Positions 3,297-19,877 of a stretch of DNA of 20,625 nucleotides are shown here, one piece after another. The translations under genes and the position numbers were made by a program. This DNA is from a virus. The stretch is taken from the IMG/VR virus record IMGVR_UViG_3300033388_003009, positions 1 to 20,625 of that record; one strand, written 5' to 3'. The stretch's first letter is position 1. Every line of letters starts with the position of its first letter. Below the pieces are notes generated by a model. The model made no database searches. It was not told where the DNA came from and saw nothing but the letters and a program-made list of their open reading frames with translations.

Positions 3297-4806
3297 GTTT
3301 TCAAGAGTTTTTGATAAAGCAAGTGGCAAACTTGGAGGTTTTTCTGGTATTTTAGGAAAAGTAGGAAAAGCCGCAGGAGTAGCGACTGCTGCTATCGGTG
3401 CTATGGCAGTAGGGATCGGAGTAAAATCTGTTTTAGCCGCAGCAAAGTTTGAGAAGTCAATGGCAAATGTTGCAACCTTAGTAGATACCAGCACGGAAAG
3501 TATGGCAGATATGAAAAAAGAGATATTAGATATGTCAGGCAGGGTTCCAGTTTCAATAGAGGATTTAACAGATGCTCTTTATCAAGTCAGGTCTGCTGGG
3601 ATAGATGCCGCAGACGCTATGGATGTTTTAGAAACTTCCGGAAAATTAGCAGTAGCAGGATTAGCCACAACTGAAGAAGCAACAAATCTTTTAACTTCTG
3701 CTATCAATGTTTATGGCGATGAAACCCACGATGCAAATACAATAGCAGAAATTTTATTCAAAACGGTTAAATATGGTAAGACAACAGTTGCTGGATTAGC
3801 ACAAGGCTTTGGTAAGGTGGCTGGAATAGCAAAAGAAACAGGAATTAGTATTGAGGAATTATCAGCCGCAACTGCCGTATTAACTACAACAGGTATTACT
3901 GCTTCAGAAGCTCAAACATCTTTGAAAGCAATGATATCTAATGTATTAAAACCAACAGCAGACGCCACAAAAGCTGCTGAAAAATTAGGTATTGAATTTA
4001 ATTTAGGAGCATTACAAGCCAAAGGGCTTTCAGAAATGTTAGTTGAGATAGCCGAAAAAGCAGGAGATGATAAACAAGCATTAGCAGATTTATATGGATC
4101 AGTAGACGCAGCTAATTCTGTTTTTACATTAACATCTGATGAGGGTGGAACGAAATTACGAGATACATTAAATGACATATCAATAGCAAGTGGAGCATTA
4201 GATGAAGCATTCCAGAAACAAAAAGATACTTTTGAAATGCAATGGCTATTAGTTAAAAATAAATTAAACAAAGCATTTATAGAATTAGGAATTAAGTTAA
4301 TGCCAAGTATTAAAGATGCAGTAGATAGATATGTTTTACCTGCTTTAAATAGTGTATCAAATTGGGTTGAGAATAATGGAGATAAAATAAGTGCACCTTT
4401 TGAACGAATATCAGACATTATGAAAGGATTCCAAATGTTTTATTCTAAAGATGAAGAGACAAGTAAGTTGATGAGAGATAAATTAAAAGAAGAAAAGTTT
4501 ATCGGACCGGTATTGAAGACAGTAGACTTTTTTGGAGGAGTAAAAGAAAGATGGAATAAATTACGAACAGCACCGGGAGAGGCTTGGTCAGATTACTGGG
4601 GAAAATTCAAAGAAGATATCGGTGGCAGTATGTCATCAATGGTTGCTGGTGCAAGAGAAAATAGAGGACAACAAAGTTTTGGATCTAATCCTACTTATAA
4701 TTTTGATTTTAAGGGTGCTTTTATAGGAAACCCAGATGAGTTTAAAGGTCAAGTAATTGATTTAATAAACCGAGAGTCTGAGTTAGGCTCTATTGGTGGA
4801 GAATAA
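3247..4806 (+). CDS. Tail tape measure protein (TP901 type)
   Basis: 519 residues. The N-terminus carries a Gly/Ala-rich hydrophobic stretch (about residues 36-66), followed at about 65-260 by the TP901 core: FEKSMANVATLVDTS, ALYQVRSAGID, AMDVLETSGKLAVAGLATTEEATN and the LTTTGITASEAQTSLKAM block, all recognisable hallmarks of this family. The C-terminal third is helical and ends with a short glycine-rich piece. The protein sets tail length and is ejected into the host. At the usual ~0.15 nm per residue, 519 residues predict a tail near 75-80 nm, short for a siphovirus. No lytic domain is visible. The gene overlaps the chaperone extension at its start. Confidence 0.92.
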   Translation: MLGKTETLTILLKGKDKFSRVFDKASGKLGGFSGILGKVGKAAGVATAAIGAMAVGIGVKSVLAAAKFEKSMANVATLVDTSTESMADMKKEILDMSGRVPVSIEDLTDALYQVRSAGIDAADAMDVLETSGKLAVAGLATTEEATNLLTSAINVYGDETHDANTIAEILFKTVKYGKTTVAGLAQGFGKVAGIAKETGISIEELSAATAVLTTTGITASEAQTSLKAMISNVLKPTADATKAAEKLGIEFNLGALQAKGLSEMLVEIAEKAGDDKQALADLYGSVDAANSVFTLTSDEGGTKLRDTLNDISIASGALDEAFQKQKDTFEMQWLLVKNKLNKAFIELGIKLMPSIKDAVDRYVLPALNSVSNWVENNGDKISAPFERISDIMKGFQMFYSKDEETSKLMRDKLKEEKFIGPVLKTVDFFGGVKERWNKLRTAPGEAWSDYWGKFKEDIGGSMSSMVAGARENRGQQSFGSNPTYNFDFKGAFIGNPDEFKGQVIDLINRESELGSIGGE

Positions 4807-17684: not shown

Positions 17685-18276
17685 ATGCTGATAATGATTG
17701 ACCTTGACGGAACTTTATTTGACACATACCACGAAATAGACATACTACACAAAGCACTATTTGGCAAAGAGTTAGATTGGAACGCACTAAAAGATAAAGA
17801 TGACTCTTACTGGAAGACAAAATCAGGCAAGTGGACAATGCAAATGTTTCAAAATGACCAATTCTATGCCGAACTTTGACCAATTCTATGCCGAACTTAA
17901 AGCATACAAAGGAGCAAGAGAAGTATTAAGGATATTTATGAGAAATCCTAAAAACGAGATACTCTATTGCACTGCCAGAAGTCCTTGTTTAGAAGAAGCA
18001 ACTGCCTATTCTCTGGGATTAAACAAAATGCCGTATGGCGATTTAATCTTTGTTAGTAGGAAAGATACCCATTTAAGAAAATTAGAAGTAGCAGTGTTAG
18101 AATGTCCCGATGTATGTATAGATGATGAATCACGAGTATTATTCGCTTTACGAGAACAATGTTTAGCAACTATCTGCTATACACAGGATTACAACAAGAA
18201 ATATCCATTCGGCTACCGTGCTAACGATTGGAACGATGTTCACGAAATATTGAAGGGAATGCAACCAAACCAATGA
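17685..18276 (+). pseudogene. HAD-family phosphatase gene broken by a 22-bp duplication
   Basis: The N-terminal frame begins MLIMIDLDGTLFDT, with the HAD motif I aspartates at residues 6 and 8, and stops at TGA (17877-17879). The rest continues in another frame with motif II-like CTARS and motif IV-like CIDDES, ending at TGA (18274). The break falls in a perfect 22-bp tandem repeat at 17855-17898; removing one copy restores a single frame of 189 codons. The intact enzyme would be a small HAD phosphatase, perhaps a nucleotidase. The gene has a full SD and is GC-richer than its neighbours. As given it makes only a 64-residue fragment, unless the duplication is an assembly error or a variable site. 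Confidence 0.85.
17855..17898 (+). repeat. Perfect 22-bp tandem duplication inside the HAD gene
   Basis: Copies at 17855-17876 and 17877-17898 are identical, starting TGACCAATTC and ending GAACTT. The length is not a multiple of three, so the duplication shifts the frame. No further copies are present. Confidence 0.97.
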
Positions 18277-18307
18277 GGGGTGGTTTGTAAAAAAACGACT
18301 GCCCCTC
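18275..18307 (+). other. Intercistronic hairpin after the HAD gene
   Basis: GAGGGGTGGTT (18275-18285) pairs with GACTGCCCCTC (18297-18307) over 11 bp including three G-U pairs, with an 11-base loop. It overlaps the TGA stop. No T-tract follows. CCTCCTA at 18304-18310 is complementary to the SD sites in this region. Related in sequence to the hairpins at 2671 and 19826. Confidence 0.75.
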
Positions 18308-18326: not shown

Positions 18327-18575
18327 ATGAATAAACAAGATTATAATTTAACAAACTGGGTTGGAGTATTAGAAACAGATTGGGATTATTTTAGAGAAGA
18401 TTTTGGTTCTGCTAATATGGAAAATATAATAGACAGACTTTTATTTCTTCAAAAAGAAAAAATATTAAAAACAATTGAATGGGATGATGAAACAGATAAA
18501 GTATCAATAAATGGTTGTAATATAAATGATGAAGATGATTTGAATGAAGCAATAGAGGGATTAAAACGATTTTAA
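18327..18575 (+). CDS. Small acidic hypothetical protein, native style
   Basis: 82 residues, acidic, with the native leader aaaatataaatatATG and very AT-rich codons. It contains WDYFREDFGSANMENIIDRL and a C-terminal acidic helix (DEDDLNEAIEGLKRF). Not recognised. It lies between the two SD-led units, each bounded by hairpins, and looks like a phage gene left between two acquired pieces. Confidence 0.55.
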   Translation: MNKQDYNLTNWVGVLETDWDYFREDFGSANMENIIDRLLFLQKEKILKTIEWDDETDKVSINGCNINDEDDLNEAIEGLKRF

Positions 18576-18606
18576 GAGGAGGTTTAACCTAATAAAAAAT
18601 CTCCTC
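18576..18606 (+). other. Hairpin between the 18327 gene and the RNA element
   Basis: GAGGAG (18576-18581) pairs with CTCCTC (18601-18606); GGTTT/AAAT pairs extend the stem to about 10 bp. CTCCT at 18601-18605 is also complementary to AGGAG in the downstream SD (18737), so it could switch between the two partners. Confidence 0.55.
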
Positions 18607-18613
18607 GTATAAA

Positions 18614-18713
18614 TAGTTCTTTTTTGGGGCGACTGCAGTATGGGGAGCATTAGAGAATGCCCAACTCCGATGAAAGGGATACCAAGTAATCGGGACTCCC
18701 CAAAAGAGAATTA
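18614..18713 (+). ncRNA. Strongly folded ~100-nt RNA element upstream of an SD-led gene
   Basis: Bases 18614-18629 pair with 18698-18713 in an uninterrupted 16-bp helix (two G-U pairs). Inside, GCATT/AATGC (18647-18660) makes a hairpin with an AGAG loop, optionally extended by GGAG/CTCC, and CCGAT (18667-18671) pairs with ATCGG (18689-18693). Within that loop GG-GATA-CC forms a small tip. AGT (18637-18639) can pair with ACT (18695-18697). No coding potential is seen. The element ends 23 bases before a full SD site, so a cis-regulatory role or an independent small RNA are both possible. It matches no riboswitch or ribozyme consensus I can recall. Confidence 0.6.
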
Positions 18714-18751
18714 TTAAAGAAACTTAAAAACTAAATAGGAGGTGATAAAGA

Positions 18752-18883
18752 ATGAAGAAGACATTAACTGAACTTACAAAAGAAGGTTGGTATAAAGTAG
18801 GAGAGTATGGACTTAACTGCGAGATTTACAAACGAGGAGAGCATAGATTGATATGGAATAGAGAAACTCACCACATACAATAG
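18752..18883 (+). CDS. Small SD-led hypothetical protein
   Basis: 43 residues, starting five bases after a full AGGAGGTGAT site. The sequence MKKTLTELTKEGWYKVGEYG followed by a beta-hairpin-like basic end (EIYKRGEHRLIWNRETHHIQ) suggests a small folded protein. It lies directly upstream of the truncated phosphoesterase in a different frame; it is either an independent small protein or the remains of an upstream part of a fused gene. Not recognised. Confidence 0.55.
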   Translation: MKKTLTELTKEGWYKVGEYGLNCEIYKRGEHRLIWNRETHHIQ

Positions 18884-18906
18884 TCATCTTAGGAGATGGA
18901 TTAGAA

Positions 18907-19557
18907 ATGGAAGCTGTAAATCATTGGCAACACGATAAAAAGAATAGGAAGTTTTTAGAAGGCAAACGACTTAAAAAAGAGTATGATGATTTTGACCGAG
19001 ACATACTAACTCCATTAGAAAAGGCTTGTGAAAAAGTAGACAAACGAAGAAAACCTACCAGAAAGATTTATATGGGTGGTAATCACGAACATTGGATCAA
19101 CACATTACTGGCTAAATTTCCTGAATTTATAGGTATGCTTGAACCTGAAAGTTATCTGCATTTAGCAGAAAGAAAATGGGAATGGATACCATTCCTTGAT
19201 AGAGGACATAGGGGATTACTTTCATTTGGGAAATTAACTGTAATGCACGGTCAATATCATAATAAATATCATACCAGCAAGACAGCTGACGAGTATTCTC
19301 ATAGCGTTGCATATTGCCATACTCACGATGTCCAGCTTTATACAAAAGTGTTTAGCGATGATCTCGGTTTTCATACTGCACAGAGCATTGGTTGTCTTTG
19401 CAACCGGAGTCCGGCTTTCAAATGGGGTAAACCAAACAGATGGGTAAATGCATTTGGCATATTATATGTAAGAAGTGATGGAATGTATAATTTATATGTT
19501 CCAATCATAATCGCTGGAAAGTTTGTCTTTGCTAATAAACTCTTCGGAGGTGATTAG
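18907..19557 (+). CDS. Calcineurin-like metallophosphoesterase, N-terminally truncated
   Basis: 216 residues from the first ATG. GGNHEHW (Asn59, His60, Glu61), VMHGQY (His114) and CHTHD (His138, His140) are the later metal-binding motifs of calcineurin-like phosphoesterases; the usual Gly before HTH is Cys here. The frame is open upstream to 18862 and reads IVILGDGLEME, a typical motif II, but no usable start codon precedes it, and the motif I DxH strand is absent. The N-terminal ~40-50 residues therefore seem to have been lost. An in-frame SD-like TAGGAG at 18890-18895 would place translation after the GD motif. Probably inactive, or a relic. Confidence 0.7.
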   Translation: MEAVNHWQHDKKNRKFLEGKRLKKEYDDFDRDILTPLEKACEKVDKRRKPTRKIYMGGNHEHWINTLLAKFPEFIGMLEPESYLHLAERKWEWIPFLDRGHRGLLSFGKLTVMHGQYHNKYHTSKTADEYSHSVAYCHTHDVQLYTKVFSDDLGFHTAQSIGCLCNRSPAFKWGKPNRWVNAFGILYVRSDGMYNLYVPIIIAGKFVFANKLFGGD

Positions 19558-19819: not shown

Positions 19820-19825
19820 AAACAA

Positions 19826-19857
19826 AGGGGGTGGTTTAGATAACTATTCTGCCCCCT
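19826..19857 (+). other. Intercistronic hairpin ending the SD-led unit
   Basis: AGGGGGTGG (19826-19834) pairs with CTGCCCCCT (19849-19857) over 9 bp including two G-U pairs. It lies six bases after the stop of the cysteine-rich gene. The 5' arm GGGGTGGTTT and 3' arm CTGCCCC repeat those of the 18275 hairpin. No T-tract follows. Confidence 0.75.
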
Positions 19858-19877
19858 ACCAAAATAATTAAACTTAT

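Follow-up and report, generated by a model that had tools for sequence, protein, structure and literature searches.

An intergenic hairpin in a phage genome fragment is a real RNA structure and not a chance hairpin, and the pairing of its sense RNA is under selection. The fragment (IMG/VR virus record IMGVR_UViG_3300033388_003009, 20,625 bases) was analysed at its full length and is referred to below as the window. Nine copies of the element, present in eight phage contigs (the window, L006, L007, L013, L021, L037, L151, and L019 with two), appear to belong to a family of small phage RNAs not described before. With a probability of roughly one half, the element is modular, a closing helix of constant sequence acting as a maturation or binding handle around a small, exchangeable RNA.

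Element in the window

The window has siphovirus-type tape-measure and distal-tail genes and encodes RusA, a DnaD-like protein and a 5'-nucleotidase-like protein, with nearly all genes on the + strand. TTGACA/TATAAT-like promoters, recognized by eye, suggest a bacterial host. The element is flanked by a stop codon at 18575 and the start of a 43-aa ORF at 18752. The features of the locus are:

18576..18606, + strand: separate intergenic hairpin (GAGGAGG...CTCCTC), outside the element; also in L006 without an adjacent element
18612..18629, + strand: 5' arm of the closing helix (AATAGTTCTTTTTTGGGG), forming 18 consecutive pairs with 18698-18715; contains the core common to the nine copies and shows covariation
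18630..18697, + strand: variable interior of 68 nt that none of the other eight copies shares
18644..18662, + strand: inner hairpin 1 (GG-GCAUU-AGAG-AAUGC-CC), prediction only
18666..18694, + strand: inner hairpin 2 (UCCGAU...AUCGGG with inner GG/CC), prediction only
18698..18715, + strand: 3' arm of the closing helix (CCCCAAAAGAGAATTATT), the most conserved part of the element
18724..18745, + strand: recurrent Shine-Dalgarno (SD) leader TTAAAAACTAAATAGGAGGTGA, also found after the elements of L007, L021, and L006
18752..18883, + strand: small downstream ORF P0001 (43 aa), which resembles the ORF following the L021 element (15 of 38 positions identical)

The preliminary description had proposed a perfectly paired 16-bp outer helix. 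The helix is slightly longer, with 16 Watson-Crick and two wobble pairs (G.U at 18616/18711 and U.G at 18621/18706), and is thus perfect if G.U is counted and imperfect on Watson-Crick pairing only. Short enclosed hairpins are indeed predicted, no + strand frame of at least 50 aa spans the element, in line with its supposed lack of coding potential, and the SD (AGGAGGTGA at 18737-18745), placed earlier 23 bases downstream, starts 21 nt past the helix and lies outside it. An undescribed structured RNA had been suspected, and Rfam 15 agrees with this, giving no match to the window at the gathering threshold and none to 18540-18780 at E up to 10.

The full element folds at -37.6 kcal/mol (z -4.9), a value equalled by 0 of 200 shuffles. 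Judged on its own sequence, however, the window hairpin is good, not exceptional. A shuffled window holds on average about 0.4 stems of 16 bp or more with a loop of at most 110 nt (10 of 25 shuffles hold one), the real window having five, and the earlier argument that such pairing is unlikely by chance is therefore weak. The helix is accepted as real because of its relatives, not because of the window sequence alone.

Other features of these records were noted. The metallophosphoesterase ORF of the window (18907-19557) is without about 38 N-terminal residues found in L004 and L005; since the sequence just upstream of it belongs to P0001, a deletion or fusion junction, real or an assembly artefact, is placed near 18870-18885. 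The 5'-nucleotidase frame is split at 17857-17900 by about 22 bp repeated in tandem (ccaattctatgccgaactt...), of which L006 and L007 have a single copy. Intergenic G-rich hairpins of the GGGG.GUGGUUU...CUGCCCC type (18274-18305, 18576-18606, and 19825-19858; same in L006 and L007) stand after several stop codons and before AAATATATG-type starts. The motif AAGGTCG/AGGTCG recurs about 25 nt before the starts of SD-less genes in the window (e.g., 1273, 11477, 13806, 12163). In L151, long GGTCTN hexanucleotide repeat runs at 3380-3560 encode Gly/Ser-rich short ORFs, with similar runs near 4006-4284.

Relatives and pairing of the closing helix

The first relatives, L006 and L007, were reached through the neighbouring 5'-nucleotidase gene. 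L007 has identical-type arms at the corresponding place before an HNH gene, around a wholly different interior. Viral contigs were scanned for the 3' arm by itself and for the two arms separated by a free gap, and each match was checked for the partner arm. The nine copies have in common a near-invariant core (AUAGUUCUUUUUU / AAAAGAGAAUUAU), of which AAAAGAGAATTAT in the 3' arm is identical in every copy. Closing stems have 18-23 pairs, consecutive or nearly so (in L006, 18 pairs plus an inner extension). The interiors are about 50-205 nt long, the aligned arm regions standing 48-200 nt apart, and when all nine were compared no two could be aligned, only the arms being alignable. An all-against-all search of the eight records for conserved-arm helices placed this family well above background and returned no other comparable family.

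Most one-arm matches had no partner arm and are attributed to chance; in L011/L014, the apparent pair arises only from the SD of a reverse gene. Bacterial two-arm matches were either chance or a different element with a conserved interior in Moranbacteria/Parcubacteria, the sole true member being the L007 contig, binned as L081. This bacterial element of ~84 bp (TTTCTTTTTTGGCACGCTTTTGGAT...; L039, L050, L057, L061, L065, L066, L070, L073, L077, L098, L099) is MITE-like and unrelated to the phage element. L081 (JAFCGI010000010.1) is the L007 virus contig within a Candidatus Pacearchaeota genome, probably through a binning error, and it bears on the host question. Exact interior patterns had no match in the viral and bacterial collections, and a BLAST search of 50,697 named phages with the elements of the window, L019, and L037 returned no element, matches to Pseudomonas phiKZ-type phages being 26-nt chance hits. 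The neighbouring metallophosphoesterase as query gave three relatives, all without the element, and the Cas4-like protein gave none. Rfam searches of six related loci returned only one unrelated tRNA, and L021 gave sub-threshold microRNA hairpins scoring far below gathering.

Compensatory changes in the outer helix had been proposed as the decisive test, and the homologues have them. In the arm alignment of the nine copies, double-sided changes occur in 10 of 25 helix pairs compared with 4.4 in shuffles (0 of 500 shuffles reach 10), and the covariation score is 0.258 compared with 0.113 after shuffling; these figures are descriptive, since the nine copies are not independent draws, and several separate columns agree. 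Sliding the partner by one to three columns abolishes the signal (slid controls at most 0.113). Altogether, 89.8% of the helix cells are paired, and the 5' and 3' variable columns of the same copy pair better than permuted ones (p<1e-5). The two-arm scans demand pairing in alignment columns 11-21, and the covariation claims therefore rest on the other columns and on L006, which the two-arm patterns did not match. For the inner columns 20-27, none of 100,000 permutations of the 3' columns among copies matches the observed pairing. For example, the outermost A-U becomes G-U in L013 and G-C in L037 and L151, and the inner GGGG/CCCC becomes GGAG/CUCC in the second L019 copy (L019b) or UUAG...CCAGC / GCUGG.CUUAA in L006. 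Conservation of the inner hairpins is not supported, as the interiors of different copies are unrelated.

The pairing is that of one strand. Over columns 6-26, 182 of 189 cells are paired on the sense strand compared with 158 of 189 on the reverse complement, and non-Watson-Crick cells comprise 26 G.U and 2 A.C. In eight of the nine copies, G.U occupies both non-Watson-Crick positions of the core, and each copy folds better in sense than in antisense. A DNA inverted repeat is not expected to favour G.T over A.C on one strand. Because G.U occurs on the sense strand and A.C almost never, the structure is that of a sense RNA, not of a DNA repeat.

Genomic context and possible roles

All nine copies are co-oriented with neighbouring genes or tRNA genes and sit almost wholly in intergenic or tRNA-array positions. 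In L019, tRNA-Ser(GCT) and tRNA-Trp flank one copy, and tRNA-Asp and tRNA-Ser(TGA) flank the second, the tRNA ends being a few bases away in each case. The copies of the window, L007, L021, and L006 are followed by the leader TTAAAAACTRAATARGAGGTGA, with the SD about 20-25 nt downstream, and then by a small ORF (window, L021), an HNH gene (L007), or the 5'-nucleotidase gene NT5C (L006); the L013, L037, L151, and both L019 copies do not precede this leader. The HNH leader has the element in L007 and not in L006, and the NT5C leader has it in L006 and not in L007 or the window. Because the leader also occurs without the element before orthologous genes, the element is gained or lost as a unit. 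The earlier idea that it is carried with SD-led genes thus describes four copies, where it comes and goes before orthologous genes, but not the other five. The rtcB gene ends about 20 nt before the element in L037 and lies about 370 nt upstream in L151; it was not found in the remaining element-bearing records, all of which may be fragments, and two of the eight records carry it.

Other RNA-like features were seen in these contigs. The minus strand of L019 (3963-3450 and 2163-2038) has other unannotated closed-helix RNAs between tRNA genes, with different arms (e.g., AATAATTAGTTAAGTTCTGG ... CCAGTATTTAGCTAATTATT). A second, weaker arm pair (GAAGTGTRGGGCTG ... CAGCCCTACTCTTGAGRGAG) was found by eye around unrelated interiors in L007 (5786-5865; interior about 44 nt) and L021 (10870-11025, minus strand; interior about 118 nt), that of L021 having a T-arm-like GTAGGTTCAATCCTAC. 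L013 has at 1916-2034 a tRNA-like RNA with acceptor GGCATGG/CCATGCC, T-arm GTCAAGCGCAAATCTTGAC, and a long insert in the anticodon region, called by neither ARAGORN nor Rfam.

If the closing helix is a handle, the element would be co-transcribed with the neighbouring tRNAs or mRNAs, and a double-strand-specific nuclease, e.g., host RNase III, or a sequence-specific binder would bind or cut its 18-24 bp stem of about two helical turns. This could set free and protect a stable RNA of roughly 100-250 nt, detaching it from the tRNA or mRNA alongside; the working part of that RNA would be the variable interior. A helix of some two turns makes host RNase III the obvious candidate, and the stems of the copies have the length of an RNase III site (about 20 bp or more). 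No RNase III gene was found in the eight records, and therefore the host enzyme would have to act. The near-identity of the core exceeds what an RNase III site needs, for which reason greater weight may belong to a more specific binder or to a recombinational origin. More tentatively, a single conserved double-stranded handle may be reused for maturing or presenting many unrelated small RNAs, with cassette-like gain and loss before accessory genes and in tRNA arrays, as an RNA counterpart of swapped anti-host effector genes.

The helix may instead be functional by itself, as an intergenic stem that insulates, stabilizes, or marks the ends of mRNAs or tRNAs. This reading, possible though somewhat doubtful, agrees with interiors unrelated in sequence and length and with the many other intergenic hairpins of these phages. 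Taken alone, the window interior has only a slight folding advantage over shuffles (z about -1.0 to -1.3), and the combined values over the copies, about -3.6 for sense and -2.9 for the reverse complement, come partly from inner stem extensions; being weakly more structured than shuffles, the interiors could be filler. Nevertheless, interiors of about 50-205 nt far exceed the needs of a loop, and the window interior has a GC content of 0.50 compared with 0.32 for its contig. The interiors of the window, L006, and both L019 copies are in the top 1-4% of their own contigs for GC, as in structured RNA, but those of L021, L151, and L013 are not. Weak interior folding and the restriction of unusual GC to some interiors keep this explanation close behind the handle.

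A DNA mobile element or recombination site with unrelated cargo, i.e., a small non-autonomous transposon bounded by terminal inverted repeats or a folded attC-like site, would account for conserved ends, a variable middle, and presence or absence before orthologous genes. It is nonetheless unlikely, as G.U pairs occur on one strand only, the stem is extended by compensation both inward and outward with a different sequence in each copy, and all nine copies are in sense where random orientation would be expected. The recombinases sought are also absent: tyrosine recombinase (PF00589) had no match in the eight records, and Y1 transposase, the sole transposase family sought, was not found in these records, which are fragments.

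Regulation of the downstream gene by a 5' UTR element is very unlikely, even though the copies of the window, L007, L021, and L006 stand about 20-25 nt before an SD. A riboswitch had been suggested, but the interiors are non-homologous and share no aptamer, Rfam gives no match, and the downstream genes differ (small ORF, HNH, NT5C, tRNA). An RNA thermometer, also considered earlier, is contradicted by an SD that is free and outside the structure, and neither proposal suits copies between tRNA genes or before genes without the SD leader. As to the alternative pairing of CTCCTC with the SD, it is possible in the window sequence, but its partner is not shared among the copies; the hexamer (18601-18606) closes the separate hairpin at 18576-18606, shared with L006, and is not present before the L007 and L021 elements, which makes a CUCCUC switch unlikely. 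Riboswitch, thermometer, and SD switch thus fail together: the interiors are non-homologous, five of the nine copies (two in L019, L013, L037, L151) are not before the recurrent SD leader, and CUCCUC is no common feature of the copies. Least probable of all is an RNA processed and joined by phage RtcB ligase, e.g., circularized through the stem, since rtcB, upstream of the element in L037 and L151, is encoded by only two of the eight records and not by the 49.6 kb L019 record, and a search for a self-cleaving motif found none.

Comparison with known systems

RNase III processing stems, such as rRNA leader-trailer stems and T7 intergenic sites, consist of a ~20 bp helix that encloses an RNA and is cut for its release. 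The phage element likewise has a long helix around an RNA; here the core sequence is almost invariant across phages and cleavage is putative. Integron attC sites have constant paired ends and a variable centre, with a RYYYAAC/GTTRRRY core and an IntI-type recombinase. Unlike attC, the phage element has no GTTRRRY core in its arms, its eight records have no tyrosine recombinase, and its G.U bias indicates RNA pairing.

The part of the literature on phage tRNA arrays and RNA processing that was covered describes no such element. A family conserved only in its closing stem escapes whole-RNA alignment, which marks a limit of family-based RNA discovery. Reports of small RNAs from the tRNA regions of phages go back to T4, and because the interiors are unrelated, interior homology cannot find RNAs of the present kind, for which the constant handle offers a search key. 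If the interior is the working part, its fast turnover would suggest a role in conflict between phage and host or between phages, and a nuclease or binding protein would have a defined substrate in the handle.

ROOL and GOLLD, structured RNAs of phages with no known function, often occur in the neighbourhood of tRNA islands, and the descriptions consulted in PMC12286853 include no shared stem around unrelated interiors. They are large according to the same descriptions (many GOLLD members >800 nt) and modelled in Rfam, whereas the phage element has no Rfam match. RNAC and RNAD are two small RNAs from the tRNA region of T4 whose role is unknown, as outlined in the portions consulted of PMC3014915 and PMC9697503. 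Two copies of the present element are similarly inside a tRNA array, a location that applies to L019 only. Unlike RNAC and RNAD, judged by those partial descriptions, the phage element has a common stem with exchangeable interiors, and most of its copies lie outside tRNA arrays.
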